30,830 bases of DNA, taken from IMG/VR virus record IMGVR_UViG_3300031565_000235, positions 1 to 30,830 of that record; one strand, written 5' to 3'. The notes under the pieces are model-generated. The model did not search any database, was not told where the DNA came from, and saw only the letters and a list, made by a program, of their open reading frames with translations. The stretch comes from a virus. Position 1 is the first letter of the stretch, and each line of letters opens with the position of its first letter. Positions 297 to 30,830 of this stretch are shown in pieces. The translations under genes and the position numbers were made by a program.

Positions 297-560
297 TTAT
301 ACCTCCCCTCCTAACTGAATCGGGTATTCGTTTTTGAAATAAATGATAAACCTTCCCTCAACCCCCACCCGCTCGATCCGATAATTGCCGTATTTCATCC
401 TCGCTTTTTTCAACATGTACCGCTGTTGAGACGTCACCGCAGGGTGCTCAAAATGCCCCGGCGGGTCGATTACGTTGATCCAGTAGATCCATATCAGGCC
501 GGTGACCAAGCCGATGACCAGGGCGAACACGAGGATGGCGATGATCAGGCGACGGATCAT
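297..560 (-). CDS. Small single-pass membrane protein, 87 aa
   Basis: Function unknown. Residues 3-28 (rich in I, L, V, A and G, ending IWIYW) form one strong transmembrane segment preceded by Arg-Arg, so the protein probably sits in the inner membrane with a short cytoplasmic N-terminus. The remaining ~55 residues are polar. The start ATG overlaps the stop of the upstream ASCH-like gene (557-560), so the two are translationally coupled. The Shine-Dalgarno site of the next pentapeptide gene lies just past its stop. Length and position are typical of unassigned phage early proteins. Confidence 0.7.
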   Translation of the reverse strand: MIRRLIIAILVFALVIGLVTGLIWIYWINVIDPPGHFEHPAVTSQQRYMLKKARMKYGNYRIERVGVEGRFIIYFKNEYPIQLGGEV

Positions 561-1150
561 GGCAATTTCTCCATCTCAATCCTCCATACCCAGTCGTTGC
601 GCTCCCAGGAGCCGGGGTGGAGGGAGTTCCAAAGATCAATAAACAGTTTTCGTTCTTCGCCTGCATATCGGATATCAATAAAACCCTCCGATAATGCCTC
701 ATCATCCGTGATCTCCTGCACCCGCTCCGGCCTCACCGAGACGATCAGGGCGTGACTTCGGGCGGCCCAGGCTGGCATGAAGCGGGGGGATCGCCAACGA
801 CCTGCTGATTCAGGTTTATCGACATCGCCATAATCTTTGGCTTTGTAATAAACCGGCTTTCTTCCCGCGATGGGAATTTCCGATGGGGGTAGATGATCAT
901 ATTTCTTATCGACCGCCCACGTCTCTCTGATATAGACCGTCTCGCCGGGGCGGTAGCGACATTTAATAGCATCATCTTTGCGGCGTCTGGTTTTGCACAA
1001 AACCCAAATGCCCTCATTCCCCTGTCCCTTAAAGATACGAAAGGATTCCGGTGAATTCATCGGCTGTGGGTTCATCAGCCTCCGCGCGACGGTCTTTCTC
1101 CCCTCCATCCACGCCCTCACCATCGGTCCGCTGAACGGTAAGCCTTTCAT
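557..1150 (-). CDS. ASCH/PUA-like phage protein, 197 aa
   Basis: The N-terminus (KGLPFSGPMVRAWMEGRKTV-ARR) matches the start of the phage ASCH-like family, in which a PUA-type beta-barrel is thought to bind RNA or modified nucleotides. Other family hallmarks are the central YRPGETVYIRETWA segment, a G-RWRSPRFMPAWAAR segment, and the C-terminal LWNSLHPGSWERNDWVWRIE. The length is usual for the phage members. The start overlaps the stop of the upstream gene by four bases (ATGA, 1147-1150), as does the downstream gene. The substrate is unknown; a nucleic-acid-related role is an inference from the fold. Confidence 0.75.
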   Translation of the reverse strand: MKGLPFSGPMVRAWMEGRKTVARRLMNPQPMNSPESFRIFKGQGNEGIWVLCKTRRRKDDAIKCRYRPGETVYIRETWAVDKKYDHLPPSEIPIAGRKPVYYKAKDYGDVDKPESAGRWRSPRFMPAWAARSHALIVSVRPERVQEITDDEALSEGFIDIRYAGEERKLFIDLWNSLHPGSWERNDWVWRIEMEKLP

Positions 1151-1401
1151 GAGCGATAACCCGCTAAGACGATTTTTTTGGTTTTGTGGAGGATCTTATA
1201 CTCCCGATCCCTGGGAAGATTGTATTCCCGGAAGACGTCTTCCCATGCCTTCAAGTCTTCTTCAGAGCATCGTATGAGGATTTGCTGCGCCTCAGATCGC
1301 AACAGTGCAGTCCCCCGGAATCGTCCAAATAACGTCTTATTCAGCTTCTCGACTACGATCTCCCCGATACGGCGATCTTCCGTCGTGGGTTTTGGTTTCA
1401 T
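1147..1401 (-). CDS. Hypothetical early protein, 84 aa
   Basis: I chose the ATG at 1401 (MKPKPTTEDRRIG) because AAGGAGAATCAA lies directly before it and it overlaps the upstream stop as ATGA. An in-frame start at 1440 would add 13 residues inside the upstream gene and has no clear Shine-Dalgarno site. The protein is charged and mostly helical, with no recognisable motif; the part LRSEAQQILIRCSEEDLKAW looks like an amphipathic helix. Function unknown. Confidence 0.65.
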   Translation of the reverse strand: MKPKPTTEDRRIGEIVVEKLNKTLFGRFRGTALLRSEAQQILIRCSEEDLKAWEDVFREYNLPRDREYKILHKTKKIVLAGYRS

Positions 1402-1625
1402 TTGATTCTCCTTGCTGCTGCGGCATTTAATGCATCGCACCCTTTCCCGGTGATCTTGAAATATGGATCAGGGACGAATGATTTATATCCTGCCTCTACC
1501 ATGAGACCCGCCTTAACTAATTCCTGCATGTCAGGACTATTCCCACAAAATAAACCGTTGGCCGTCCTGTGGCATGTATGGTCCAATATATCAATTTGTT
1601 CACGATTCAATTCCTTGCTTGTCAT
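1398..1625 (-). CDS. Hypothetical early protein, 75 aa
   Basis: No family recognised with certainty. The layout (N-terminal helix, L-KAGLM...FKITGKGCDAL, C-terminal helix) resembles small phage proteins with a winged-helix-like ending, where an ITxKGxxAL motif is common. It is coupled to both neighbours by four-base ATGA overlaps (1398-1401 and 1622-1625). A DNA-binding role is possible but not shown. Confidence 0.6.
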   Translation of the reverse strand: MTSKELNREQIDILDHTCHRTANGLFCGNSPDMQELVKAGLMVEAGYKSFVPDPYFKITGKGCDALNAAAARRIK

Positions 1626-1963
1626 GTCGCCACCGCCGCACCATACGCATCCTGGTAGATCAATGATTTCAGGATCTCGTGCCGTGGGCAGAAGATCCGG
1701 GGCATAATGTGGGGCTGCTTTTCCATCTCGACGGTGTGCAGATTATGGCCGTCCGGGCAGCGCGGGCATTTCGCTGCCACCTTGTAGACGATCCGGTCCT
1801 TCAGCAACGGCCCATAGAGTTCGCGTCTGACCGTATACATCCGGGCGCGGACCTTACCCTTCAGCCGCTCATATGAGCACTCCGGGCAGGTTATCTGGCG
1901 GCCCTTTGCGCCGAAGGCTTTTCCGCATTCGTTCCCATTGAATCCTGGGCATGTTTTTGTCAT
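1622..1963 (-). CDS. Cys-rich zinc-ribbon-like protein, 113 aa
   Basis: Cysteines fall in pairs: C5 and C13, CPEC at about 26-29, CPRC at about 67-70, and a late C..H pair (FCPRHE). Such spacing is typical of two small zinc-binding knuckles. The middle (YERLKGKVRARMYTVRRELYG) is strongly basic, which fits nucleic-acid binding. It overlaps both neighbours by ATGA junctions. I do not recognise the specific family; the function is unknown. Confidence 0.6.
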   Translation of the reverse strand: MTKTCPGFNGNECGKAFGAKGRQITCPECSYERLKGKVRARMYTVRRELYGPLLKDRIVYKVAAKCPRCPDGHNLHTVEMEKQPHIMPRIFCPRHEILKSLIYQDAYGAAVAT

Positions 1964-2130
1964 GGCGTTGCCTCCCGCCCTTCCTTATAGGCAAGCCCTC
2001 TTTTGCGTCGCCATTTTGCCGCCTGTCTAACAAGGCCAAGATCCTTATGCTGTGTGTGCGGAAGTCCTACCCTCTCGCACGCCTTTAGATATTCCTTATC
2101 CCCGCTTATCGAAAATTCACGGTTTGTCAT
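1960..2130 (-). CDS. Hypothetical small basic protein, 56 aa
   Basis: The ATG at 2130 (MTNREFSISGDKEYL) follows a GGAGGG Shine-Dalgarno site eight bases upstream and sits just past the stop of the HNH gene. A start five codons earlier would overlap that gene and leave the Shine-Dalgarno site inside it. The C-terminus is basic (KWRRKRGLAYKEGRE). Nothing identifies a family. Confidence 0.55.
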   Translation of the reverse strand: MTNREFSISGDKEYLKACERVGLPHTQHKDLGLVRQAAKWRRKRGLAYKEGREATP

Positions 2131-2131
2131 G

Positions 2132-2803
2132 TTAATGCCCTCCACAAATCTGTATTTCTAAAGATGGTTGAAATGGTCTTTCAAGTTTCGCCTGTTTTTG
2201 AATGTTCTTTTTTGCCTCCAGTGGTTGCAAGTTTTTAAGCGCCCAGCACCGCTTAAAATCTATGTCTTCCGGTGTTGAAAAATTAAATACAGAGATGGGG
2301 ATTTTATGATCGATATGCCAGTAGGAGCCATAGTTTTCCCATGTCATTCCGGGCTTGAATTGTTTTTCGAGGTGCCGCTTTAGTTGATTGGCGGTATATC
2401 CGGCGAGCAATTCCCAGTGGCGCCCAGCCTTTTCACCACCCCGCAATGAAGAACGCATCCCGAGAGAGATTGAGGCCGACGCTCTTATATATGGCTTGCT
2501 TCTCTTTTTGAGAGATTTTCTCCTGTCTTGTGCTTTCGCCATCTCGGGATGTTTCTTCCGCCACTCAGCACCGAAGAGGGGGTTTTTAAGATAGCGCTTA
2601 CGTTGACGTTCCTGATGACTTTCCTTGTTTTTGGTGTACCACTCCCTGTTGTACTCGGGATTTTTTAGCTTCCATGCTTGATGCATTATTGATTGGCAAG
2701 ATCTGCATCTGCTCCAGCACCGTCCATTCCGCTCCTTCCGCCTATAAAATTCCGAAAGCGGTTTTGTTTCCCCACACACAGAACATTTTTTTTCGTCAGT
2801 CAT
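2132..2803 (-). CDS. HNH endonuclease with N-terminal zinc ribbon, 223 aa
   Basis: Residues 7-36 form a four-cysteine ribbon (C7xxC10 ... C33xxC36) of the kind seen before phage HNH nucleases. Residues 38-105 are a basic linker with repeated aromatic/basic helices. The nuclease core has HIDH at 163-166, the N191 of LKNLQPL and the N200 of AKKN, giving the His-Asn-His metal site expected to nick or cut DNA. The length fits freestanding phage HNH proteins. It is not inside an intron or intein that I can see, and it lies among early genes, so it may be a mobile (homing-like) insert. A packaging role is less likely because terminase genes are not near. Confidence 0.85.
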   Translation of the reverse strand: MTDEKKCSVCGETKPLSEFYRRKERNGRCWSRCRSCQSIMHQAWKLKNPEYNREWYTKNKESHQERQRKRYLKNPLFGAEWRKKHPEMAKAQDRRKSLKKRSKPYIRASASISLGMRSSLRGGEKAGRHWELLAGYTANQLKRHLEKQFKPGMTWENYGSYWHIDHKIPISVFNFSTPEDIDFKRCWALKNLQPLEAKKNIQKQAKLERPFQPSLEIQICGGH

Positions 2804-2814
2804 GGCTATACTCG

Positions 2815-3123
2815 CTACCGTATGGAATATTCATAAACCCCGTTATTGTTGATAGGGTAGCAGTGAAGTTGGAAACCGTAGGGCTTCAGGAATTTTCGGA
2901 TCTCGCTTGCGCGGCCAGTCGAGTTAGGGATCATCGGTCCGCCCAGGCCAAATATGATATCTAGGTTTTTCACCCGGCCATACCGAGCGAGGCGGCTGTA
3001 GATACGGTAACGCTGTGAATTGGTTTTATAGGGGTTAGGTGGGAGCGGTCTGCTGGTTCGTTCCCATGAGTGGGGCGCGGGCAATTTCCCGTAGGCTGTA
3101 AAATCAAAACCGGTCTGCGTCAT
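2815..3123 (-). CDS. Hypothetical early protein, 102 aa
   Basis: The start at 3123 lies 5 bases past the stop of the pentapeptide gene and is preceded by GGGGAGGTGACGTC. The protein has a proline-rich N-terminal third (KLPAPHSWERTSRPLPPNPY) followed by a probable alpha/beta unit (YRIYSRLARYGRV ... FGLGGPMIPNSTGRASEIRKFLKPYGF). No catalytic motif is recognised. Function unknown. Confidence 0.6.
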   Translation of the reverse strand: MTQTGFDFTAYGKLPAPHSWERTSRPLPPNPYKTNSQRYRIYSRLARYGRVKNLDIIFGLGGPMIPNSTGRASEIRKFLKPYGFQLHCYPINNNGVYEYSIR

Positions 3124-3127
3124 GACG

Positions 3128-3979
3128 TCACCTCCCCTTTAACCCGATCTCTACTAAATCCTTCTCACCCACTACCTTACATCTATGAAGTCTTATCTTT
3201 CCGTCCGTTGCCGTAGGGATCGCCGCAATGTCTTTTGCCGTAAATTCTACAATTAGAATTCTGTAGCCTTCACGCCAGTCCTTCATGCACCAATCCAGCG
3301 TAGCGATATTGATACCCGCCGCGCATTGAAGAGTGTCGTCCATGTTAGCGTTGTCAACCGATACCGTCGTTCCCGTGAGATATTTCACCCCACCGTTATA
3401 AATGCCTTCCAGTTCGGCATTTACGAGTTTATATGCGCGGATTTTACCTGGCTGGTCGAGAAGCATAAGGAGCGGAGTGCATCGACTTTTATCGATTCCC
3501 TTCGCCCCGGACAGGTTGGCCCCGGATATGTTGGCCCTGGATATGTCGGCCCCGGAGAGGTTCGCCCGGGATATGTTGGCCCTGGATATGTTGGCCCCGG
3601 AGAGGTTCGCCCGGGATATGTTGGCCCCGGATATGTTGGCCCCGGATATGTTGGCCCCGGATATGTTGGCCCCGGACAGGTCGGCCCCGGATATGTTGGC
3701 CCCGGATATGTTGGCCCCGTAGAGGTCGGCCCCGGAGAGGTTCGCCCGGGATATGTTGGCCCCGGATATGTTGGCCCCGGATATGTTGGCCCTGGATATG
3801 TTGGCCCCGGACAGGTCGGCCCCGGATATGTTGGCCCGGGATATGTTGGCCCCGGACAGGTCGGCCCCGGACAGGTCGGCCCCGGATTTCCAGGCAGCTT
3901 CAACACATAATTTCAGTGATTCCGTTTCCAAAGAGAAAATAACCGAACCCGTAAATCGGTTTTTGATTTCATATTGCAC
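3128..3979 (-). CDS. Pentapeptide-repeat protein with extra C-terminal domain, 283 aa
   Basis: It starts at GTG 3979 after a GGGGAGG site; the nearby ATG is out of frame. Residues 1-33 are the cap shared with the gene at 1-290. Residues 34-163 are 26 uninterrupted pentapeptides, mostly [15 protein letters not shown] and ANLSG, predicted to make about six and a half turns of a square beta-helix. Residues 164-283 are a non-repeat domain (begins KGIDKSRCTPLLML) with no family I can name. The near-perfect regularity and low unit diversity suggest recent repeat expansion. A DNA-mimic or anti-gyrase/anti-defence role is speculation based on other family members. Confidence 0.88.
   Translation of the reverse strand: MQYEIKNRFTGSVIFSLETESLKLCVEAAWKSGADLSGADLSGANISRANISGADLSGANISRANISGANISGANISRANLSGADLYGANISGANISGADLSGANISGANISGANISGANISRANLSGANISRANISRANLSGADISRANISGANLSGAKGIDKSRCTPLLMLLDQPGKIRAYKLVNAELEGIYNGGVKYLTGTTVSVDNANMDDTLQCAAGINIATLDWCMKDWREGYRILIVEFTAKDIAAIPTATDGKIRLHRCKVVGEKDLVEIGLKGR
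3491..3880 (-). repeat. 26 tandem 15-bp units coding pentapeptides
   Basis: The units differ by only a few bases, for example CCCCGGATATGTTGG against CCCCGGACAGGTCGG on the plus strand. Because the unit length is a multiple of three and stop-free, long false frames appear on both strands across it. Confidence 0.92.
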
Positions 3980-3993
3980 GGCTTACCTCCCCT

Positions 3994-4131
3994 TTAATGT
4001 GTCAAGATATGATAGATCCCCGGTAAGACGATCCAGCAGAACGCGAGGCCGCAGCTTATGATCGCCACCCATCTTATGATGTACTCCGCGCTTTCCATGA
4101 ATCGCTCGATGCTTGTTTGCTCTGTGATCAT
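3994..4131 (-). CDS. Small membrane protein, 45 aa
   Basis: An ATG at 4131 follows a near-perfect AAAGGAGG site five bases away, and the frame ends at TAA 3994. Residues 18-42 (YIIRWVAIISCGLAFCWIVL and onward) are one hydrophobic membrane span. It fills the otherwise empty gap between the coiled-coil gene and the pentapeptide gene. Function unknown; it may be one of the small inner-membrane proteins often found in phage early regions. Confidence 0.65.
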   Translation of the reverse strand: MITEQTSIERFMESAEYIIRWVAIISCGLAFCWIVLPGIYHILTH

Positions 4132-4143
4132 GACGTCCTCCTT

Positions 4144-4404
4144 TTAATGTGGGGCGTCGTGCAGACCGCCCCGACCTACTACTGGCCGCTGCTCAAGGTC
4201 CGGTGAGCTTGCCGGGATCTGAGGATACTTTGCCGGGGGCCTCCTTTCTTGTTCGAGATATTGCCGCACCGTCGCCATGTCTTTTTTCTGCCACGCCAGC
4301 CCGTATTCGTATTTACTTATTTCCCCGCGTGGCTTGCCCATGAGTTGATCGATCCGGGCTTCCAGGGCGTCTATGCGGTTTTCTAGGGCTTCATAGCGGG
4401 TCAC
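4144..4404 (-). CDS. Hypothetical protein with N-terminal coiled coil, 86 aa
   Basis: It uses GTG at 4404, after GAGGGA and just past the stop of the HTH gene. Residues 3-22 (RYEALENRIDALEARIDQLM) are heptad-like and predict a short coiled coil, followed by a charged middle and a proline-rich tail. The function is not known. Oligomerisation through the coiled coil is the only supported inference. Confidence 0.6.
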   Translation of the reverse strand: MTRYEALENRIDALEARIDQLMGKPRGEISKYEYGLAWQKKDMATVRQYLEQERRPPAKYPQIPASSPDLEQRPVVGRGGLHDAPH

Positions 4405-4406
4405 TG

Positions 4407-4841
4407 CTATCCCTCTTCCTCAACTTCCGTGAAGGCCAGTAAAGCCGTAATTTTGGCGCAGCTCTGCATGAGTTCATGACGTTCTTCCCGGCTCATGTTT
4501 ACCGATAGAGTCCTTCGCATCTGCGGCAATAGTGGGCGAATTGGTTGAGCAAGGGGACGCAGTGCATCGAGGGTGGAAACTATCCATCTTGAATAGCGGT
4601 CGAGTTTTACCGCATTGGCATCGTCTTCAAGCCATTCTTTATTGATGAGAATGTAGCCATCTTCGGTATGGATGATAGGCTCGTTATCTTTCCGAAGGGA
4701 TTTGATTTTACGTTTAATCGTTTCTCTTTTTACATTAAAATAATCTGCAAGTTGTGCGGCTGTTAAATGATTGCCTTTTATCTCCTGTTTAACTTCTTCC
4801 GGTGTGACTTTTACTCGGGTATCTGGTTTTTCGTCGTCCAT
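4407..4841 (-). CDS. HTH-containing early regulator or replication accessory protein, 144 aa
   Basis: The ATG at 4841 follows GGAGG. Residues 12-55 hold a helix-turn-helix: VTPEEVKQEIKG, then LTAAQLADYFNVKRETIKRKIKSL, then a wing-like stretch (EPIIHTEDGYILINKEWL) as in winged-helix HTH_11-type domains. The C-terminal half is helical, with proline near residues 96-107 and no recognised domain. The gene overlaps the upstream 239-aa gene by 31 bases in another frame, which couples their translation. A DNA-binding role is likely; the target is unknown. Confidence 0.65.
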   Translation of the reverse strand: MDDEKPDTRVKVTPEEVKQEIKGNHLTAAQLADYFNVKRETIKRKIKSLRKDNEPIIHTEDGYILINKEWLEDDANAVKLDRYSRWIVSTLDALRPLAQPIRPLLPQMRRTLSVNMSREERHELMQSCAKITALLAFTEVEEEG

Positions 4842-5530
4842 GCGAATACCTCCAATCGTTTGCGGATGATTATGGCTTTCGCCGTTGCCTCCCTGAACGC
4901 TGCCTCATGCCAATCTTTCGGCGGCTTCTGGGGAAGGGCATGAATACACTGGTCAAGGGCGCTGATATAAAGCATCTGTTCGGGTGGGTACGCCTTCCTG
5001 AGTGCTTCCTTTACGGGGGCCGCCGCCGCCTGCCGTTCCTTTTCTTTTTCATAATGGATTGCGTTCAGGACGGCGGTTTTGGTGGGGATGTCCTCGTTTT
5101 CTCGCGCCTGAGCCTTGATCTTGGCGACGATTTCGGGGTTGTCTTTGATGGTGCGGGCGTGTTCTAACTTCTTTCTCGTCATCCCAAGTCTCTCGTACTT
5201 CGGCGGCTCCCCGGAGGGGGACGAACCGCCTCCTTTCCCTCCTGCGATAGATCGTGCCGGGAGTTCCTTTTCTGCCAGTTCACCGATCCGCGCCTCAATA
5301 TCGAGGAGCATTTCCCCGGCGTCCTGGCCGTCCCTGAGCGTCGCCTTCCGTTGCGCCTCAGTCATGCCGAGCTGATCCATGAGTTTGATCTTGGTCTGGT
5401 AGAACCTCACCGCCGCCTGTCCTATAAACGACATCGGGACAAGCTCCTCTGATGTAGCCGGTAACAATCTGTTTTGAGTGATAATCTTGAACATTTCCAT
5501 AGCTTCTTCCCCTTCCATTTGGTCTGTCAT
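4811..5530 (-). CDS. Hypothetical phage protein, ParB/Noc-like middle segment, 239 aa
   Basis: The ATG at 5530 follows AAAGGGGACAGC. Residues 1-90 are helical with acidic surface; 95-108 are a Gly/Ser-rich linker. Residues 110-160 (KYERLGMTRKKLEHARTIKD and onward) resemble the helix-rich segment seen in phage proteins related to ParB/Noc-type DNA-binding factors. The rest is helical and ends with a tryptophan-containing helix. The resemblance is weak and I would not name a function. Its position directly upstream of the HTH gene suggests a DNA-metabolism or regulatory partnership. Confidence 0.6.
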   Translation of the reverse strand: MTDQMEGEEAMEMFKIITQNRLLPATSEELVPMSFIGQAAVRFYQTKIKLMDQLGMTEAQRKATLRDGQDAGEMLLDIEARIGELAEKELPARSIAGGKGGGSSPSGEPPKYERLGMTRKKLEHARTIKDNPEIVAKIKAQARENEDIPTKTAVLNAIHYEKEKERQAAAAPVKEALRKAYPPEQMLYISALDQCIHALPQKPPKDWHEAAFREATAKAIIIRKRLEVFAWTTKNQIPE

Positions 5531-5549
5531 GCTGTCCCCTTTCTCACCG

Positions 5550-5657
5550 CTATGTCTTTGATTCCTTTAATGTATACATCTCTGAAATCTTCCGCCCTAA
5601 ATGTTTACCATTGTCAAACAATTGTATACGTGACATGTTAAAAAATTTTGGTATCAT
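5550..5657 (-). CDS. Possible small basic protein, 35 aa
   Basis: An ATG at 5657 overlaps the upstream stop (ATGA at 5654-5657), the junction used repeatedly in this operon, and the frame runs to TAG at 5550. It fills the gap of about 120 bases before the next gene. There is no separate Shine-Dalgarno site, so expression would depend on coupling. The region also contains two copies of TGTATAC (5571-5577 and 5623-5629), so it could instead be regulatory. Confidence 0.35.
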   Translation of the reverse strand: MIPKFFNMSRIQLFDNGKHLGRKISEMYTLKESKT

Positions 5658-5908
5658 CGTTTCAAAAGGTCGCGCAGTTCAACCCGACCTTTGCTCTGGA
5701 TCAGGAGAATGGTTTTGTAATCGTCAAGGAAACCCTTTATCGCGTACTCTTGGAGGAGCTCAGAAATGCCGACACCCTTAGCGATGCAGACGGCCTCAAG
5801 GTCAGATTTGAATTTTTCGCCCACCCGGAAGGAAACGAGGGCTTGTTTTTTTTCATCTTCGACAGGTAAATGCGGATTCGACCAATCAAGTTTGACCTGT
5901 GTCGCCAT
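5654..5908 (-). CDS. Possible ribbon-helix-helix type protein, 84 aa
   Basis: The ATG at 5908 follows a strong AGGAGG. Residues 22-60 read QALVSFRVGEKFKSDLEAVC-IAKGVGISELLQEYAIKGFL: a beta-strand with alternating residues, then two helices separated by a G-x-S turn, as in CopG/Arc-type DNA-binding dimers. An acidic N-terminal tail precedes it. Such proteins usually repress small operons or act with plasmid/phage partition or toxin-antitoxin units; no partner toxin is visible. The assignment rests on pattern only. Confidence 0.6.
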   Translation of the reverse strand: MATQVKLDWSNPHLPVEDEKKQALVSFRVGEKFKSDLEAVCIAKGVGISELLQEYAIKGFLDDYKTILLIQSKGRVELRDLLKR

Positions 5909-5918
5909 GCTGGACCTC

Positions 5919-6140
5919 CTATTCTTTCGGCCAAATTGTCTGCACGTTCGTTTTCAGGTGCGTCGCGATCTCCCGGAGACGGTATTCCGGTGTAGCCGTG
6001 TAAACGATTTCGGAGAGATAAACCTTCCCGATGGGCGGATTCATCCGCTTTCCGAGAGATGAAAGGGTGAGGTCATGAAGACGCAGTTTGGAAAAAAACA
6101 CATTTCGCTTGACTTTTCGGGAGACTTTGGGTTTATTCAT
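5919..6140 (-). CDS. Ner/Nlp-like HTH regulator, Cro candidate, 73 aa
   Basis: The protein has the small Ner layout: LRLHDLTLSSLGKRMNPPIG, then KVYLSEIVYTATPEYRLREI, ending ATHLKTNVQTIWPKE. The closing 'IWP' after a last helix is a feature of phage Mu Ner and bacterial Nlp proteins. It lies second in the leftward early operon, opposite in direction to the CI-like repressor at 6748, so a Cro-type role (turning down the early promoter and the repressor) is a reasonable inference. The start overlaps the upstream stop as ATGA (6137-6140). Confidence 0.65.
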   Translation of the reverse strand: MNKPKVSRKVKRNVFFSKLRLHDLTLSSLGKRMNPPIGKVYLSEIVYTATPEYRLREIATHLKTNVQTIWPKE

Positions 6141-6376
6141 TTTTTATTGTCCTTACTTTGTTTAGTAGGAGAAGCTTTTAAGGTTTCGGCGATGTTCTTG
6201 ATTATGCACAGAAGGCGGACAAACAGCCCCGCTCCCGGCGTGGCCTTGATGGTGTAATAATGTTCACCGTCATATTGAGCGAACGGTATTTTGTTGATTC
6301 TTGCTTGGGCGTCTTCTTTGGACCATGCGGGAATATCGAACCCCCACCACGCTCCATCGTGATAGTATTGAAACAT
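6137..6376 (-). CDS. Small phage early protein, 79 aa (possible longer form to 6646)
   Basis: The core form starts at ATG 6376 after GGAGACGGTAT and begins MFQYYHDGAWWGFDIPAWSK, a layout common in small phage proteins of unknown function. A hydrophobic stretch (AGLFVRLLCIIKNIAETL) lies near the C-terminus. The frame stays open upstream to an ATG at 6646 that has its own strong AGGAGG site and lies directly downstream of the early promoter, giving a 169-aa alternative. That extension runs antisense through the DUF1508 gene and has low-complexity, Pro/Ser/Cys-rich content, so I prefer the short form. The extension may be a translated leader. Confidence 0.55.
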   Translation of the reverse strand: MFQYYHDGAWWGFDIPAWSKEDAQARINKIPFAQYDGEHYYTIKATPGAGLFVRLLCIIKNIAETLKASPTKQSKDNKK

Positions 6377-6426
6377 ATACCGTCTCCACTTTTTACCATT
6401 ATCAACACCACAAGGAGGGCCTAAAG

Positions 6427-6597
6427 ATGGAATTTCATGTTTACAAGGACACCTCGAATCAGTGGAGGTGGCGCTTACGCGCGCAAAACAACAAGAATAT
6501 TGCAGTGTCAGGCGAGGGTTATTACAACAAGCAGGACTGCCTGGACGCGATTGCTCTGGTAAAACAGTGCGGTTCTGCTCCGGTGAAGGAAGATTAG
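6427..6597 (+). CDS. DUF1508 (UPF0339/YegP-like) protein, 56 aa
   Basis: An ATG at 6427 follows AAGGAGGG. The short product holds one DUF1508 unit: FHVYKDTSNQWRWRLRAQNN, then IAVSGEGYYNKQDCLDAIAL-VK. Family members have one or two such units and unknown function; they occur in bacteria, archaea and phages. It lies on the plus strand inside the leader of the leftward early operon, antisense to the possible 169-aa reading frame. No promoter of its own is evident, so transcription from the left or from an unseen promoter must be assumed. Confidence 0.75.
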   Translation: MEFHVYKDTSNQWRWRLRAQNNKNIAVSGEGYYNKQDCLDAIALVKQCGSAPVKED

Positions 6598-6651
6598 GAT
6601 TTGAATCTGGGTGGAGACGGTTCATTTCTTCGGTAGATTCTGGCATGGCTT

Positions 6652-6657
6652 CCTCCT
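6652..6657 (-). promoter_or_regulatory. Strong ribosome-binding site in early leader
   Basis: The minus strand reads AGGAGG five bases before an ATG at 6646. It is the first translation start after the early promoter and opens a 169-codon frame ending at 6137. Whether the product is a leader peptide or a long form of the 79-aa protein is unresolved. Confidence 0.55.
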
Positions 6658-6687
6658 GATTAGGTTTGGGTTACTTCGTTAGGTGGA

Positions 6688-6716
6688 GATATACACGATC
6701 GCAAATTATATGTCAA
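6688..6716 (-). promoter_or_regulatory. Early lytic promoter (PL-like), leftward
   Basis: On the minus strand TTGACA (6716-6711) and TATATC (6693-6688) are separated by exactly 17 bases, close to the sigma-70 consensus. A transcript would start near 6681 and enter the early operon. One copy of the 9-bp ATTTGCGAT repeat lies in the spacer, well placed for a repressor to block RNA polymerase. Confidence 0.75.
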
Positions 6717-6737
6717 GCAAAATCTACAATCGCAAAT
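6698..6737. promoter_or_regulatory. Operator candidates, two direct repeats ATCGCAAAT
   Basis: ATCGCAAAT occurs at 6698-6706 and again at 6729-6737, 31 bases (about three helical turns) apart, between the divergent early promoter and the repressor start. One copy is in the promoter spacer; the other is 11 bases before the repressor ATG. This is where CI/Cro operators are expected. Confidence 0.6.
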
Positions 6738-6747
6738 AATTAATTTT

Positions 6748-7218
6748 ATGGCTACTAAAAACCTTGATTTCACTGATAAATTGGAAAAGTTACTCTCCGA
6801 CATGGAGGTTGATAAGAAAATATTTTGTAAAAATGCTAAAATAAATTATTCTACATTCATGACATATCTCGCTCCTGGAAGCCGGGGGCGCGTTCCTGAG
6901 TGGGATCAGTTAGTCAAGATTGCGAAGGCGTTAGAGAAAACAATAGATTGGCTTCTCACCGGTATTGATCCGACAAACAACACATGCTCCGTCAAATGTG
7001 ATGAAAAACTCCGTCGGCTATGTGCGCGTGTGAAAAAGGTCATGGAGCCTGATGACGGATTCTCAAAGGCGCTGAAGGCAAATATTTATGCATTCGAGGA
7101 GTCGGCAGACATGAAAAAGGAGATTCAGAATATTAAACTGACATCCACAAAGGGTCAAGATGGCGGTATGCCGCAAGAACCGGCAAGGTCTACCGCCAAA
7201 AAACGGAAGGCCGGGTGA
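6748..7218 (+). CDS. CI-like phage repressor with XRE-type HTH, 156 aa
   Basis: Residues 8-72 form the DNA-binding domain: FTDKLEKLLSDMEVDKKIFC, then KNAKINYSTFMTYLAPGSRG, then a recognition region ending in ALEKTIDWLLTG, which is typical of phage CI N-terminal domains. The rest (73-156) is a helical, charged tail; there is no S24/LexA-type Ser-Lys peptidase domain, so RecA-stimulated self-cleavage is not expected. The ATG at 6748 has no Shine-Dalgarno site before it (AT-rich DNA only), so the mRNA may be leaderless, as lambda cI is from PRM. The gene is divergent to the early operon, with shared operators between, and leads the lysogeny region. Confidence 0.8.
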   Translation: MATKNLDFTDKLEKLLSDMEVDKKIFCKNAKINYSTFMTYLAPGSRGRVPEWDQLVKIAKALEKTIDWLLTGIDPTNNTCSVKCDEKLRRLCARVKKVMEPDDGFSKALKANIYAFEESADMKKEIQNIKLTSTKGQDGGMPQEPARSTAKKRKAG

Positions 7219-7273
7219 TCTACCTGAGTTTTCCGGCGCGTTATGGGTCATCGGATATCAAAAAGCTGGAAAC

Positions 7274-7295
7274 GTGATTTATTTGTGAAAGGAGG
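7274..7295 (+). repeat. Leader repeat, copy 1, before a lipoprotein gene
   Basis: This 22-base block, GTGATTTATTTGTG followed by AAAGGAGG, recurs at 8203-8224 with one change (T to C). It carries the ribosome-binding site of each lipoprotein gene. Confidence 0.85.
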
Positions 7296-7302
7296 TTGAC
7301 AA

Positions 7303-7563
7303 ATGAAAATGATTCTTGCTGTTTTCCTGAGCATGCTCCTTATGGGGTGTGCCGGAATGATTACAAGGTGGGATTGCGCTTCATCGAATTGTCTATCGAA
7401 AGATCGAGCATCCAATAAATGCCTCGCCCAAGCAAACGCCGCATTTTCCAAAAACAAACGCCTAATCTGGGAGCAATGTATGAGAGGGGAAGGGTTTAGG
7501 AATCGGGTTTGCGAGCCCCATGAAAGACGCGATCCGGACTGTAAAGTATTTCACATCTTTTAA
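7303..7563 (+). CDS. Small Cys-rich lipoprotein, 86 aa
   Basis: The first 16 residues (MKMILAVFLSMLLMGC) are a lipoprotein signal with lipobox LMGC, so C16 should be lipidated after cleavage. The mature part has six further cysteines (among them CASSNC, KCLAQA, QCMRG, VCEP, DCKVF), which suggests disulfides in the periplasm. The ATG at 7303 follows AAAGGAGGTTGACAA. It is the first gene of a rightward unit with the next lipoprotein. Phage lipoproteins expressed with the repressor are often lysogenic-conversion or superinfection-exclusion genes; that role is inferred from position only. Confidence 0.75.
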   Translation: MKMILAVFLSMLLMGCAGMITRWDCASSNCLSKDRASNKCLAQANAAFSKNKRLIWEQCMRGEGFRNRVCEPHERRDPDCKVFHIF

Positions 7564-7576
7564 GGAGGGTTAAGAT

Positions 7577-7951
7577 ATGAGAAAAGCAGCAATTCTTTTT
7601 TTCTTACTCATCCTGATTTCATGTGGGGGAGGCGGGGATGATGCCGACCCCACGAAGCCACAGGCCAAGTTCGATATCACATCCGTTGTGAAGACGATGA
7701 CGAGCTATGACCGACCTTCGTTGATAATAACGGTGGAAAACACCGGGGAGGCGACAGGGTATAATGTTTCTTGTGATGCCCATGCCCGAAACGCAACGGG
7801 CACGATAATAGATACGGCATCGGCTTTTTTTGCGGGTCTGGGGAATATAGCGGTCGGCGAAACAGCATTGAACGAGGCGGTTTTCTTCAGCCTCAAATCG
7901 CATAATGATTATGTTACCTTGACTTATGACTGTTCGTGGCTAACGATGTAA
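7577..7951 (+). CDS. Lipoprotein with FxLYD-like beta domain, 124 aa
   Basis: The signal (MRKAAILFFLLILISC, lipobox LISC) predicts lipidation at C16, followed by a glycine-rich tether (GGGGDDAD). Residues 31-122 look like a small immunoglobulin-like FxLYD domain: SLIITVENTGEATGYNVSCD, then GTIIDTASAFFAGLGNIAVG and a final strand with DYVTLTYDC. Two cysteines (in NVSCD and YDCSW) may form a disulfide. An AAGGAGGG site precedes it, 13 bases past the previous gene. Likely a surface or periplasmic protein expressed in lysogens; function unknown. Confidence 0.72.
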   Translation: MRKAAILFFLLILISCGGGGDDADPTKPQAKFDITSVVKTMTSYDRPSLIITVENTGEATGYNVSCDAHARNATGTIIDTASAFFAGLGNIAVGETALNEAVFFSLKSHNDYVTLTYDCSWLTM

Positions 7952-7974
7952 GAAATTAACCCATGTCCCTCGAA
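7948..7974 (+). repeat. Junction repeat, copy 1
   Basis: The block GTAAGAA-ATTAACC followed by CATGTCCCTCGAA recurs at 8517-8544 with small indels; 14 bases (CCATGTCCCTCGAA) are exact. In the second copy the ATG is the integrase start; in this copy the frame opened by the same ATG leads into the terminator and tRNA and is not a gene. Confidence 0.85.
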
Positions 7975-7993
7975 CATCAGGTGAAAATAATGC

Positions 7994-8023
7994 TTGACAA
8001 ACGAACAGAACTTTGTTTACTTA
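7994..8023 (+). promoter_or_regulatory. Promoter candidate before terminator and tRNA
   Basis: TTGACA at 7994-7999 and TACTTA at 8018-8023 are 18 bases apart. The only things downstream before the terminator at 8063-8106 are about 40 non-coding bases, so it may drive a small RNA, or the tRNA by read-through. Confidence 0.5.
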
Positions 8024-8029
8024 TGAATC

Positions 8030-8106
8030 AGCGGGCTGGTGAGGCTTCCAGAACTCGGAGCCAGGGGCGAGACAAAAGAAAGATTTCTGTCTCGCCCCTT
8101 TCTTTT
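8030..8106 (+). ncRNA. Candidate small RNA ending at the terminator
   Basis: A transcript from the promoter at 7994-8023 would be about 75-80 nt and end at the hairpin 8063-8106. The 5' part contains CTGG...CCAG and GGCT...AGCC complementary pairs, so it can fold. The only long frame across it runs into the tRNA and has no Shine-Dalgarno site. The call rests only on a promoter-terminator pair. Confidence 0.35.
8063..8106 (+). terminator. Rho-independent terminator
   Basis: GGGGCGAGACA (8064-8074) pairs perfectly with TGTCTCGCCCC (8088-8098) around a 13-base A-rich loop and is followed by TTTCTTTT. It sits just upstream of the tRNA. Confidence 0.88.
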
Positions 8107-8112
8107 ATGCGT

Positions 8113-8189
8113 GCCCCCGTAGCTCAACTGGATAGAGCGCCAGTCCGCTAAACTGGGTGCTTCGAGTTCGAGCCTCGACGGGGGCACCA
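8113..8189 (+). tRNA. tRNA with Arg-like body and GCT (Ser) anticodon
   Basis: All four arms pair perfectly: acceptor GCCCCCG/CGGGGGC, D stem GCTC/GAGC with loop AACTGGATA, anticodon stem CCAGT/ACTGG, and T stem TCGAG/CTCGA with loop TTCGAGC. A73 and an encoded CCA follow. The variable loop is only five bases (GTGCT), so this is a class I tRNA. The anticodon loop is CCGCTAA: anticodon GCT at 8147-8149 would read AGC/AGT serine codons, but bacterial tRNA-Ser is class II with a long variable arm. The D loop with A20, A73 and the overall body match tRNA-Arg. Position 33 is C where U is almost universal. It may be a degenerate, specialised or miscoding tRNA. Confidence 0.85.
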
Positions 8190-8202
8190 CTCTTGAAATA
8201 CT

Positions 8203-8224
8203 GTGATTTACTTGTGAAAGGAGG
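8203..8224 (+). repeat. Leader repeat, copy 2, before a lipoprotein gene
   Basis: It is identical to 7274-7295 except for one T-to-C change and carries the AAAGGAGG site of the lipoprotein gene at 8230. Confidence 0.85.
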
Positions 8225-8229
8225 GCATT

Positions 8230-8520
8230 ATGGTTAAGATTATCTTGATATTGATCATTTCCTTTGGCCTTTCCGGCTGCACCACCTATGAGGGAGCCGC
8301 CTATATTAAAAAAGACCTTGATAACCTGGCGTGTTCAAGAAAACCCGCGCCAACGAGTATCGACATAAAAACGGCAAAAGTAGATTGCATAAAAGATGTT
8401 GTTGATGAGGAATTTTTTAAGGGTGGCGCATCAATTATGGTCGTAGATAGCATAAGGGGTGTAAACCGATATAGATATGCTAGCTGCATGGACTATAAGG
8501 GATACTTTTGCACTTGGTAA
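8230..8520 (+). CDS. Small lipoprotein, 96 aa
   Basis: The signal MVKIILILIISFGLSGC ends in lipobox LSGC, so C17 should be lipidated. The mature part is mixed alpha/beta with four cysteines (ACSRK, VDCIK, SCMDY, FCTW) and no recognised family. Its leader is a near-exact copy of the one before the lipoprotein at 7303, and both proteins are short and cysteine-containing, but their mature sequences do not align convincingly. It ends about 12 bases before the integrase start. A host-envelope role in the lysogen is inferred. Confidence 0.72.
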   Translation: MVKIILILIISFGLSGCTTYEGAAYIKKDLDNLACSRKPAPTSIDIKTAKVDCIKDVVDEEFFKGGASIMVVDSIRGVNRYRYASCMDYKGYFCTW

Positions 8521-8544
8521 GAATAATTAACCATGTCCCTCGAA
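8517..8544 (+). repeat. Junction repeat, copy 2, at integrase start
   Basis: It matches 7948-7974 (GTAAGAATAATTAACC then ATGTCCCTCGAA). It covers the stop of the lipoprotein gene and the first codons of the integrase. Confidence 0.85.
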
Positions 8545-9627
8545 TTCCGCAAATCCCGCTGGTACGTGATCTATCGCCCCGACGGTCGATATGGAAGGCG
8601 GGTCCGCGTGCCGGTTCCTCCGGACACGGACCCGCAGGGCTGGCACGACGATTTCATCCGCGAGTGGAAGGAAAGCAAGGCGGGTAGTCAGGAGATCCGG
8701 GCGCTCACCGGCCTGACCATCAGCCAGCTCTGGCCCGAATATCTTCAGTGGTCCGAGCTCCATCACGCCGCGACCACGCATCGGGACTTGGTGAACGTCG
8801 GGCAGTATATCAAGAAGTATATCGGTCAGTACGACGCAGAGGGGATCGGGCCGCACCATGTGCAGGTGTACCAGCGGTTACGGACGGAGGGGGCGGGGAG
8901 GGCGATCAATCGAACGGTCAATAAGGAGATCAATTATTTGATGGGGATGGTCCGCTGGGCCGGGCGGCAGGGGCATATCACCCCGCGCCGGCTTATCCTT
9001 GACATGCTGCCGTACAAAAAACCGCTCCCCCAGGTGCTTACAGCGGGGGAGGTTGAGGCGCTTGTGGGGGCCGCAAATCCTTTTTACCGCGCCTATTTAT
9101 TGGCCCTCTACGCGCTCGGGCTCCGGTCCATCGAGATGCGCAATCTGAAATGGAAAGACGTGAATTATGAGCGCGGCGTGGTGAACATGGTTCAAAAGGG
9201 AGGCTCTACAAAGAGTCTTCCGATGGGCGCGGCTCTTTCATCGGCTCTGCAGGAGATCGCCCCGCCAGCGGCCAACCGTGAAGCCGGGTGGGGGGATTCA
9301 CCGGTATTTCGGAATCCGAGAACAGGGAAGGCCATCGTGAACGTCCGGCCTGCTATCAAGCGGATTGCTAAACGAGCCGGGGTGAATAAATGGGTCCATC
9401 CTCACATGCTCCGGCACTCATGCGCCTGTCATATGATGGATGCTGGCGTCAATCTTCGCATAATTCAAACATTCCTCGGGCATGCGAGCATCCAAACAAC
9501 TGAAATTTATACCCATGTGAGTATAGAGAATTTAAGGGCGGCGCAAAGGCTTATCAGTGGGGGGATTGATAAGATAAAGCCTCCCGCCCGCGACAATATT
9601 TTCCGGTTCCCTGCCAGAGCGAAATAA
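8533..9627 (+). CDS. int: Tyrosine-family phage integrase, 364 aa
   Basis: Catalyses recombination between attP and attB for integration and, with an excisionase, excision. Residues 1-50 are an Arg/Lys-rich beta domain of the arm-binding type, 57-160 the core-binding SAM-like domain, and 165-345 the catalytic domain. Catalytic residues seen: R198 (LGLRSIEM), K222 or K227, H291 and R294 (HPHMLRHS), H317 (FLGHAS) and nucleophile Y326 (EIYTHVS). The length is normal. It lacks the extra IntI-specific helix near the third patch, so it is not an integron integrase. No good Shine-Dalgarno site precedes ATG 8533. The tRNA-Gln 3' end at 11169-11217 is the likely attP core. Confidence 0.92.
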   Translation: MSLEFRKSRWYVIYRPDGRYGRRVRVPVPPDTDPQGWHDDFIREWKESKAGSQEIRALTGLTISQLWPEYLQWSELHHAATTHRDLVNVGQYIKKYIGQYDAEGIGPHHVQVYQRLRTEGAGRAINRTVNKEINYLMGMVRWAGRQGHITPRRLILDMLPYKKPLPQVLTAGEVEALVGAANPFYRAYLLALYALGLRSIEMRNLKWKDVNYERGVVNMVQKGGSTKSLPMGAALSSALQEIAPPAANREAGWGDSPVFRNPRTGKAIVNVRPAIKRIAKRAGVNKWVHPHMLRHSCACHMMDAGVNLRIIQTFLGHASIQTTEIYTHVSIENLRAAQRLISGGIDKIKPPARDNIFRFPARAK

Positions 9628-9663: not shown

Positions 9664-9691
9664 TTGACATTAAATTGTAAAGGTGTATATT
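9664..9691 (+). promoter_or_regulatory. Sigma-70 promoter for accessory genes
   Basis: TTGACA (9664-9669), a 16-base spacer and TATATT (9686-9691) make a strong promoter 31 bases before ATG 9722. It supports the 9722 start, since a start at 9683 would lie upstream of the expected transcription start. Confidence 0.7.
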
Positions 9692-9972: not shown

Positions 9973-10113
9973 ATGAAGAAAAAGCACCCCATCACGATCG
10001 TTCTAACAGAAGAAACCCACGCGGCCCTTGTGAAGATGGCCGAAAAGGAAAGCCGCCCCGTGGCGCAAATGGCACGGGTATTGATTGAGAAGGCGGTAGA
10101 GGTTAAGAAATGA
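9973..10113 (+). CDS. Short ribbon-helix-helix (Arc-like) protein, 46 aa
   Basis: The sequence starts MKKKHPITIVLTEETHAALV, followed by a second helix (ESRPVAQMARVLIEKAVE). One beta strand plus two helices with a polar S-R-P-V turn is the whole CopG/Arc fold, so a DNA-binding dimer is likely. It begins two bases past the previous stop with no strong separate Shine-Dalgarno site. Its last 45 bases are repeated at 10841-10885 with about 82% identity. It could be an excisionase or a regulator of neighbouring genes. Confidence 0.6.
   Translation: MKKKHPITIVLTEETHAALVKMAEKESRPVAQMARVLIEKAVEVKK
10069..10113 (+). repeat. Ribbon-helix-helix gene 3' end, copy 1
   Basis: ATGGCACGGGT ... CGGTAGAGG ... 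AAGAAATGA. It matches 10841-10885 at 37 of 45 positions; the two copies bracket the cassette region. Confidence 0.8.
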
Positions 10114-10148
10114 GTTTGGAATACCATCGCCGTCCGCTGGAGTGATTT

Positions 10149-10155
10149 GTTATGC
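10149..10155 (+). other. Integron cassette 5' boundary (GTTATGC)
   Basis: GTTATGC fits the recombination-site core GTT(R)(N)(R)Y, one position off consensus. Its exact reverse complement GCATAAC is the R'' box of the attC-like site at 10439, as expected for the two ends of one excisable cassette. The flank to the left (CCGCTGGAGTGATTT) has no matching left arm, so this would be a secondary or remnant site. Confidence 0.5.
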
Positions 10156-10180
10156 GGTTTTTAACATATTGGAGGATGAC

Positions 10181-10444
10181 ATGCACTTGAATTATTTCCT
10201 ACTTACTGCCGGAATTACCTGTAAAATTAATGAGCACCCACAGAAGCAAATGGAAAAACTTGGCATTACATATCAGGATGCTACTCCACAGAGTTTGTAT
10301 GATTCATGGTGGTTTTGGAATTGTGAAAATGTTCCGCCCGAGTTACCTGAATATTTGACCGAACTAACCATTGATCCCATGCTCTGTATAGGCCATGGGC
10401 TAAGCAAAGAAGATGCAGAAAAGATACGGGATTATAAGGCATAA
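10181..10444 (+). CDS. Hypothetical protein of cassette 1, 87 aa
   Basis: The ATG at 10181 follows GGAGGATGAC, 26 bases after the cassette boundary. A GTG at 10142 would lie before the boundary and has no Shine-Dalgarno site. The product (starts MHLNYFLLTAGITCKINEHP) contains WWFWNC and a C-terminal helical motif GLSKEDAEKIRDYKA. I recognise no family. The stop TAA lies inside the R'' box of the attC-like site, as is usual for integron cassette genes. Such genes are typically orphan proteins with no promoter. Confidence 0.7.
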   Translation: MHLNYFLLTAGITCKINEHPQKQMEKLGITYQDATPQSLYDSWWFWNCENVPPELPEYLTELTIDPMLCIGHGLSKEDAEKIRDYKA

Positions 10445-10496
10445 CGCAGTAATAAGGCGCGGGGCTTTTCCCGTCGCCTTGATTTAATTGTTATAC
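10439..10496 (+). repeat. attC-like recombination site (58 bp)
   Basis: Layout: R'' GCATAAC (10439-10445), a five-base unpaired spacer, AATAAGGCG paired with CGCCTT-G-ATT (10451-10459 with 10475-10484, one extra G at 10481), a CGGG/CCCG tip hairpin, a second five-base spacer, and R' GTTATAC (10490-10496). R box, 5/5 spacer, L box with one extrahelical base, and a variable tip is the attC architecture. The extrahelical base is on the 3' side in this orientation, the opposite of the usual side, so the true orientation may be reversed. Confidence 0.6.
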
Positions 10497-10530
10497 ATTT
10501 TTTGTGACCAAAGAAAAGGAGCAATGATTT

Positions 10531-10755
10531 ATGCCAAACGCAACGTTAGATGCTTTTGATAATTTTTGGGACGGTTACTGGAAACCGACGCAATTCCCAG
10601 CGGTCTTTGATGCCGCCATGCGTGAAATCGCTGTAAACGCATGGAATGCTGCCTTAAAAGCGGCAGACGATAAAATATACAGATCGTATAAACTTGATGG
10701 ACAGATGAACCGGGCGGACTATAGCGCCCAGGTCTTGTCTATTCGTGCTGTATAA
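10531..10755 (+). CDS. Hypothetical protein of cassette 2, 74 aa
   Basis: The ATG at 10531 follows AAAGGAGCAATGATTT. The protein is helical (EIAVNAWNAALKAADDKIYR); repeats of the W-N-A-A type occur in many phage and cassette proteins without a known role. The stop TAA lies inside GTATAAC (10750-10756), the exact complement of the GTTATAC at the start of this cassette. No promoter is evident between the attC-like site and the gene. Confidence 0.65.
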   Translation: MPNATLDAFDNFWDGYWKPTQFPAVFDAAMREIAVNAWNAALKAADDKIYRSYKLDGQMNRADYSAQVLSIRAV

Positions 10756-10756
10756 C
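10750..10756 (+). other. Cassette 2 R'' box (GTATAAC)
   Basis: It is the exact complement of GTTATAC at 10490-10496. It is followed by an imperfect palindrome (about 10767-10803, ACAGAA...TTCTGT with ATTGCAAT in the middle) that could be the arms of a second attC. No clear GTTRRRY closes it, so the 3' end is lost or diverged. Confidence 0.45.
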
Positions 10757-10840
10757 ACATAGTAGACAGAAAAATTATATTGCAATAAGATAATTCTGTA
10801 TAGTACAATTAAGCTGTTCTCTACTTAACATTATGAAACA

Positions 10841-10885
10841 ATGGCACGGGTGATTATTGAAAGGACGGTAGAGGGAAAGAAATGA
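10841..10885 (+). pseudogene. Remnant of a ribbon-helix-helix gene 3' end
   Basis: The last 14 codons plus stop (MARVIIERTVEGKK) match the end of the 9973-10113 gene (MARVLIEKAVEVKK). The 5' half is absent. The stop overlaps the next start as ATGA, suggesting the intact ancestor was coupled to the 10882 gene. Confidence 0.65.
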
Positions 10886-11115: not shown

Positions 11116-11168
11116 CACATAGGCAAAATTAAAGATCAATATTATCGGGTATTTACCCTATGCGTTTT

Positions 11169-11217
11169 ACGGACTCTGACTCCGTGAATAGAGGTTCGAG
11201 CCCTCTTCCCCCAGCCA
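11169..11217 (+). other. attP core: 3' part of tRNA-Gln(CTG)
   Basis: The sequence runs from the anticodon stem to CCA: ACGGA/TCCGT stem with loop CTCTGAC (anticodon CTG), variable loop GAAT, T arm AGAGG/CCTCT with loop TTCGAGC, acceptor strand TCCCCCA, G73 and CCA. The 5' half of a tRNA is absent upstream, so it is not a functional gene here. A phage carrying this segment restores a host tRNA-Gln(CTG) gene when it integrates. Confidence 0.85.
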
Positions 11218-11228
11218 AATGAAATCAA

Positions 11229-11260
11229 GGGGTTGCGGCCAAATCCGCAGCCCCTTTTTT
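11229..11260 (+). terminator. Rho-independent terminator after the tRNA segment
   Basis: GGGGTTGCGG (11229-11238) pairs with CCGCAGCCCC (11245-11254), one G-T wobble, loop CCAAAT, followed by six T. It would terminate the tRNA-Gln restored by integration. The opposite strand has a weaker tail (TTGATTTC) and may also stop the tail operon. Confidence 0.88.
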
Positions 11261-29975: not shown

Positions 29976-30830
29976 TTTGACCTCCCATGATTGCACTATG
30001 CACCCCGTAAGCAGATACGATTGGTAGTGATGAAAGAAATTCAATAGAAGGTGATGCGCTCTCTGAGGCACTTTCACTTGCGCTCGCGGATTCCGACTCG
30101 CTCATGGATTCTGATGCGGACTCACTTTCGCTTGCAGATTCAGACCCGCTTGCACTTTCGCTCTCTGATGCAGATTCACTCCCAGACGCGCTCGCGGAAG
30201 CCGAGCCACTTGCCGATTCGGAGGCCGATTCGCTGGCAGAACCAGAGGTACTTCCAGACGCACTCTCCGAAGCGCTCTCGGATTCAGATGCACTCTCTGA
30301 CCCAGAAGCTGATTCACTGGCTGATTCCGAAGCCGACTCGGAAGCACTTTCACTGGCAGATTCTGACTCACTTTCTGAGATAGAGGCACTACCTGAAGCA
30401 CTACCAGAAGCTGACTCAGATGCCGATCCTGATGCGGATTCACTACCAGATTCAGACGCGCTCTCGCTGGCAGATTCCGAAGCCGACTCGCTCATGGATT
30501 CCGATATGCTGGCGGACTCCGAAGCCGAACCTGAAGCGCTGCCGCTGGCAGATTCGCTGGCCGATCCGGACTCGCTCTCGCTGGCAGATTCCGAAGCCGA
30601 CTCGGACATGGATTCGGATATGCTGGCCGATCCGCTAGCCGAACCTGAAGCTGATCCGCTGGCAGATTCGCTGGCCGATCCGGACTCGCTGCCGCTGGCA
30701 GATTCCGAAGCCGACTCGCTCATGGATTCCGAGATGCTGGCTGATCCGCTGGCTGAACCTGAAGCTGACCCGCTGGCAGACCCACTAGCCGATTCAGACG
30801 CGCTCTCGCTGGCAGACTCCGAAGCCGACT
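29962..30830 (-). CDS. Serine-repeat protein (every second residue Ser), N-terminus outside window
   Basis: The frame is open to the window edge, with 288 codons visible. Nearly all of it is (S-A/E/G)n, for example SASESASGSAS, so serine occurs at every second residue. A non-repeat tail of ~29 residues closes it (SIEFLSSLPIVSAYGVHSAI and onward). Several serine codons are mixed, so selection keeps the protein pattern rather than the DNA. Such tracts resemble glycosylated serine-rich adhesins and mucins. Its stop overlaps the start of the GalNAc-transferase-like gene by 14 bases. Internal ATGs within the repeat (e.g. 30723) should not be taken as the start. It is likely a virion surface protein or fibre; its N-terminal domain lies beyond the window. 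Confidence 0.8.
   Translation of the reverse strand, partial: SASESASESASESASGSASGSASGSASGSASISESMSESASESASGSESGSASESASGSASGSASGSASISESMSESASESASESESGSASESASGSASGSASESASISESMSESASESASESASESGSESASGSASESASGSASGSASISESESESASESASESASESASESASGSESASESESASESASGSTSGSASESASESASGSASASASGSESASESESASGSESASESESASESMSESESASASESASESASPSIEFLSSLPIVSAYGVHSAIMGGQIVSG
30060..30830 (-). repeat. Degenerate 6-bp (Ser-x) coding repeat
   Basis: Plus-strand units such as GCTGGCAGATTCC and GAAGCCGACTCG recur with many synonymous changes, unlike the nearly identical 15-bp repeats of the pentapeptide genes. The tract reaches the right edge. Confidence 0.8.

Follow-up and report, generated by a model that had tools for sequence, protein, structure and literature searches.

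The viral record IMGVR_UViG_3300031565_000235 probably (at roughly 80%) comes from a temperate phage that carries integron-type gene cassettes in a short array, with the genes antisense to the attC sites of their own cassettes and with the integron integrase (IntI) of the host as the enzyme that moves them. Bacteria shuffle antibiotic-resistance genes in mobile cassettes of this kind. Cassettes in phages are already known; no mention of the antisense rule, or of gene polarity in phage cassettes, was found in the searchable open-access literature. The reversed layout seems to be standard in viruses and exceptional in bacteria.

The cassette region and its attC site

The window, by which we mean the whole stretch of DNA analysed (30,830 bases), encodes a phage integrase, a tape-measure-like gene, a head-tail adaptor and a tail terminator. 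No nucleotide relatives of the window were found among phage records, and no Rfam model matched it at gathering thresholds. The array sits in a phage accessory region, with the integrase on one side and a tRNA-like, probable attachment site on the other. The integrase gene (8533-9627, plus strand) encodes a phage tyrosine integrase (PF00589, phrog_1), for which no relatives were found among the viral contigs. A promoter-like site 5' of the accessory genes (9664-9691, plus strand) is the best in the promoter scan and agrees with 11 of 12 consensus positions, as a consensus match only. Left of the array lies a ribbon-helix-helix gene (9973-10113, plus strand; PF07878, E = 1.3e-8), and beyond its right side are a degraded tRNA-like sequence (11147-11217, plus strand), which scores 16.3 bits with the tRNA model, less than the gathering score, and a terminator-like hairpin (11227-11256). 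The adjacency of the tRNA-like sequence to int suggests that it is the probable phage attachment site. The end of the ribbon-helix-helix gene is duplicated, at 10068-10113 and 10840-10885, with the array between the copies, the second of which holds the last residues only (MARVIIERTVEGKK); the duplication may be a trace of the array's entry or truncation. Elsewhere, the minus strand of the window encodes a pentapeptide-repeat-like protein amid phage genes (3128-3979) and, at the record end, an ORF of serine-glutamate-alanine repeats (29962-30723; SESASESASGSA).

Each of the two cassette genes is flanked by a pair of complementary R boxes, GTTATGC (10149-10155) and GCATAAC (10439-10445) around gene 1, and GTTATAC (10490-10496) and GTATAAC (10750-10756, the right end of the array) around gene 2. 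All four boxes are where the initial annotation had placed them, and so is the 58-bp fold with the plan of an attC site that it had described at 10439-10496. In this fold, the spacers measure 5 nt and the L boxes 9 bp, and a single extra G stands on the 3' side of the plus strand. The genes had also been said to lack promoters of their own, and between 9745 and 10752 the promoter scan yields no sigma-70-like site on the plus strand.

To search for attC sites, we used a covariance model (R1) built from 13 attC sites of plasmid resistance integrons and three sites of phage TJE1, with long terminal stems cut to 16 nt for training, and ran it with filters off on both strands of the window. A single match is confident: with 50.1 bits and E = 4.9e-10, it covers 10439-10496 of the minus strand and is aligned over the full length of the model. 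The TJE1 sites score 50.6-54.7 bits but were part of the training set. The initial annotation had proposed integron-type cassettes in a phage accessory region, and had counted the absence of any attC match among the grounds for giving the proposal up; the match supports it. On the minus strand, the site consists of R'' GTATAAC, one position off the strict RYYYAAC consensus, L'' AATCAAGGCG with an extra C, L' CGCCTTATT and R' GTTATGC. It folds better than its shuffled counterparts, with a z of about -2.9. With its R and L boxes, extrahelical base and foldability, 10439-10496 is an integron-type attC site, and it is complete. A chance hairpin or a plain terminator between two phage genes would agree with the GC-rich stem and with the location between two genes, but the E-value of the model, the absence of 10439-10496 from the list of the terminator scan and the complementary R boxes that match at both genes leave this explanation with a negligible probability.

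A pattern for the 5' half of attC, with 11 conserved positions, matches the window at only two places, 10439-10496 and 10155-10131, both on the minus strand, where simple arithmetic predicts about 0.015 matches; a separate stem scan gives about 0.2 matches per shuffled window. The second place is a truncated half attC (10131-10155, minus strand), with R'' GCATAAC, a spacer, L'' and the start of the terminal stem, and is presumed to be the site of the gene-1 cassette. No convincing attC fold was found 3' of the right end at 10756. The window has one complete attC and one half site, with no intI; a CALIN is defined by at least two attC sites and no intI. Since one attC is halved and none is found at the right end, both cassettes of the window may be immobile relics.

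The initial annotation had also raised the possibility that the array is reversed, and this has become the most important point of the analysis, as the attC lies on the minus strand. Read along the gene strand, the resistance-cassette and TJE1 controls have their extra L-box base on the 5' side, and the window has it on the 3' side. Because the full and the half attC are both on the minus strand, each of the two plus-strand genes follows, and is antisense to, its attC, whereas in the usual, though not universal, cassette the gene is sense to its attC. We rejected the reading as ordinary sense cassettes, in which 10439-10496 belongs to the preceding gene 1 as in resistance integrons. The R boxes are symmetrical, and so the order of gene, R box and hairpin seems normal, but the same site scores just 13.5 bits on the plus strand, the extra base is on the opposite side, the half site 5' of gene 1 is likewise on the minus strand, and the units shared by relatives (below) consist of attC and the following gene. 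Taken together, these points make the sense reading very unlikely.

The two cassette genes

Gene 1 (10181-10444, plus strand) encodes a protein of 87 amino acids from a conserved phage family, and gene 2 (10531-10755, plus strand) a protein of 74 amino acids. In agreement with the initial annotation, both genes stop inside an R box, with TAA in GCATAA|C and in GTATAA|C, respectively. The unit of 341 bp that it had delimited as cassette 1 (10150-10490) is replaced, since with attC on the minus strand a unit is an attC and its downstream gene. The predicted gene-2 cassette instead spans 311 bp (10445-10755, plus strand), attC then gene 2, with RYYTAA|C cuts at both ends. These ends are predicted from the polarity of the attC and from the ends of shared viral cassettes, because the window's own cassettes did not turn up in any shared copy.

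The gene 1 protein has 37 matches in viral contigs and three in genomes. The relatives in viral contigs are 47-67% identical to it over most of their length, and the alignment has 22 members; these relatives show that gene 1 is real and on the plus strand. Most of the records with gene 1 relatives have no attC match, and two, the phage L011 and the contig L039, have the relative in an antisense array like that of the window. L039 belongs to a gammaproteobacterial MAG and carries replication genes. The predicted fold of the gene 1 protein is confident, with no PDB match at E <= 0.001 and with viral homologues only. For gene 2, no relatives were found in viral contigs or in 24 records, and no family matched. 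At the attC of the window itself, the antisense gene scores 4.7 by codon usage, short of the cut-off for a call, so the polarity in the window rests on the homologues of gene 1.

Judged by eye, L011 also has genes at 560-3899 that look like csf2 and csf3 of type IV CRISPR systems, as well as one that is CysH-like, and the stop of the csf3-like gene falls within the R box of an attC. In L039, a long array of cassettes (3762-9571), in which attC sequences recur and an MT-A70-like methylase is encoded, lies beside replication and DnaB-like genes; no integron integrase was found in the bacterial MAG to which it belongs.

Gene polarity in viruses, bacteria and plasmids

Two surveys of viral contigs were made, the first with an attC motif search that gave 105 records, to which the covariance model added further sites, and the second with another motif in a largely independent, stem-filtered sample of at least 120 contigs, of which 53 failed the stem check. 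With these numbers, the rarity of such sites in phages, as assumed in the initial annotation, was overstated. Gene strands were called by codon usage, learned from the long ORFs of the same contig and applied to the genes that abut attC. The surveys cover motif-chosen sites in computationally defined viruses, with many sites undecided, and the bacterial controls come from two groups; most are gammaproteobacteria, and the phylum of G024 contributes few.

The first survey showed 46 viral contigs to be antisense and 7 sense (35 undecided), with antisense to sense ratios of 2:13 for bacterial loci and 0:4 for plasmid loci. In the second, 21 viral contigs were antisense and none sense (37 undecided, 53 dropped), and the bacterial ratio was 2:17. 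Pooled over the decidable cases, the ratio is 67:7 in viruses and 4:30 in bacteria (p = 7.5e-16), in viral contigs that were cleared of obvious duplicates and are not all independent. Every decidable plasmid resistance cassette is sense. Some of the bacterial antisense calls are probably not cassettes (by eye, L193 resembles dapD and L362 a transposase) and are still counted against the hypothesis. Simple ORF length, a cruder caller that is noisy in GC-rich contigs and was dropped for codon-usage scores, gives an excess in the same direction. Its sense call for L078/L168 was overturned, as a conserved protein shows these to be antisense. The long genes that flank the cassettes in antisense contigs with data are antisense to attC in 29 contigs and sense in 12.

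Clusters of attC sites without intI have been described in phages TJE1, PH101, P12002L and MW202573, and recombination by IntI1 has been reported for attC bottom strands, including those of PH101 and also the TJE1 sites (Qi et al. 2023, PMC9892861). The orientation of genes relative to attC is not a subject of that paper, and the words reverse, opposite and antisense are absent from its main text. According to the depositors' annotation, PH101, an isolated phage, has four attC matches on the plus strand with all neighbouring genes on the minus strand, and MW202573 has three attC sites on the minus strand beside plus-strand genes. The array of TJE1 is sense, and so is that of a Shewanella prophage with its own intI at its clearest site; P12002L has no match to the covariance model. 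Two attC queries against phage records matched only in phage P1 and in one Salmonella record. Like the array in the window, these phage-borne CALINs hold attC cassettes without intI, and their cargo includes methylases (Qi et al. 2023); PH101 and MW202573 share the antisense layout, and TJE1 does not. The cassettes of class 1 resistance integrons and bacterial arrays have the same R and L boxes, extrahelical base and G|TT unit ends as the window, but their genes are sense and precede the attC, whereas the genes in the window are antisense, follow the attC and are found without intI. In bacterial genomes, IntI reportedly also inserts cassettes at attG sites outside the integron platform (Loot et al. 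2024, Nat Microbiol, cited in PMC11023631). The present case differs from such insertions in its location in phage operons, its polarity bias and its stop-codon junctions.

The excess of antisense genes might also be a sampling artefact, with reversed arrays from uncultivated bacterial integrons misfiled as viruses. IMG/VR is computational, the one terminase family tested is present in just 10 of 50 records, and L039 is located in a bacterial MAG. However, 8 of the 10 terminase-bearing records are antisense by ORF length, one of them with the terminase gene itself beside the attC, PH101 is antisense as an isolated phage, and most of the complete, intI-bearing integrons that were sampled are sense. 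An artefact of this kind is therefore improbable.

Shared units, stop codons and the movement of cassettes

An all-against-all BLAST search of the viral contigs revealed cassettes that are common to contigs with differing flanks. In five pairs (L086/L092, L107/L159, L117/L158, L093/L157 and L078/L168), the common stretch is an attC and the gene located 3' of it on the gene strand, and the identity stops at the R boxes, as a G|TT exchange in the polarity of the attC predicts. The attC and the antisense gene travel together in five of the six shared cases. In L093/L106, the gene between both R boxes is common and the attC differs; this pair shares no attC and is thus uninformative about which attC belongs to the gene. 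Reading frames that are conserved in both partners of the shared pairs support the antisense gene. Of the 82 antisense cassettes from viruses, 60 have their stop codon TAA precisely at RYY[TAA]|C, versus 8 of 23 bacterial and 0 of 5 plasmid sense cassettes (60:22 versus 8:20, p = 8e-5).

While a complete integron carries intI in cis, the window record contains a single PF00589 match, which reaches 96.6 bits with TIGR02249 against a cut-off of 265 bits, and the absence of intI noted in the initial annotation stands. An intI at the cut-off is also absent from 47 of 50 attC-bearing viral records. The L135 record (G353, 4499-5428) is the sole antisense viral record with an above-cut-off integron integrase (389.6 bits). 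As the phage encodes no IntI, the simplest agent is an IntI of the host cell that acts in trans, and excision and insertion by the host integron integrase is the most likely route for this phage. The proximity of a tyrosine recombinase gene, about 800 bp away, and the rarity of intI on attC-bearing viral records would also suit a phage recombinase, either the integrase of the window or another, as the enzyme that moves the cassettes. The integrase of the window is, however, an ordinary phage integrase that lies by a probable att site and scores far short of the IntI cut-off, the same type of attC is found in phages with and without an integrase, and the sites of PH101 are functional with IntI1 (PMC9892861). 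We regard movement by a phage recombinase as quite improbable.

On the gene strand, the unit has the order attC, gene and RYYTAA|C. The bottom strand of the attC, the recombinogenic one, is also the strand that codes for the gene, and TAA, the stop codon, lies at the predicted exchange point. The cassette genes would be transcribed as part of the phage accessory operon. The explanation that we favour for the polarity, although tentatively and at somewhat less than even odds, is a filter at insertion. Packed phage operons would tolerate insertion at the ends of genes. At a stop codon, where TAA|C is complementary to G|TTA, an insertion would leave the upstream gene intact but would fix the attC against the direction of transcription, and hence only cassettes with antisense genes would be expressed and kept. 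The 29 contigs with antisense flanks, versus 12 with sense flanks, are what is expected if cassettes follow the direction of the operon.

A higher recombination has been reported when the bottom strand of attC is located on the lagging-strand template (PMC5371416), and this effect could add to the polarity if operons run with replication. Efficiency of recombination, rather than a filter at insertion, might even drive the polarity by itself, with the bottom strand on the coding strand serving as the lagging template, which presumes that transcription and replication are co-directional. The boost by the lagging template and the flanking genes that are co-directional with the cassettes in 29 versus 12 contigs agree with this explanation, but alone it fails to account for the TAA at the cut in 60 of 82 cassettes, and we consider it somewhat less likely than the insertion filter.

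The genes that are antisense at viral attC sites encode N6/N4 and MT-A70 DNA methylases, a terminase large subunit, an SSB, an ERCC4-type nuclease and an RNase T-like exonuclease, as well as, by eye, a Mom-like protein in L086. An anti-restriction role has been proposed for phage cassette methylases by Qi et al. (PMC9892861), and the methylase cargo observed here is consistent with it. It is an even bet that phages keep and exchange a back-to-front cassette pool of their own, which is adapted to insertion by the host IntI at the stop codons of phage operons and is expressed in the phage. If this is true, the gene of a phage cassette would be antisense to the Pc promoter once a bacterial integron had captured it, which would constitute a barrier. 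Surveys already published on phage attC sites can now be re-read for polarity. The origin of cassettes from genes is an old unsolved question in integron biology, and with a large viral pool of consistently inverted polarity, the question of whether phages are makers or filters of cassettes can be put to the test.
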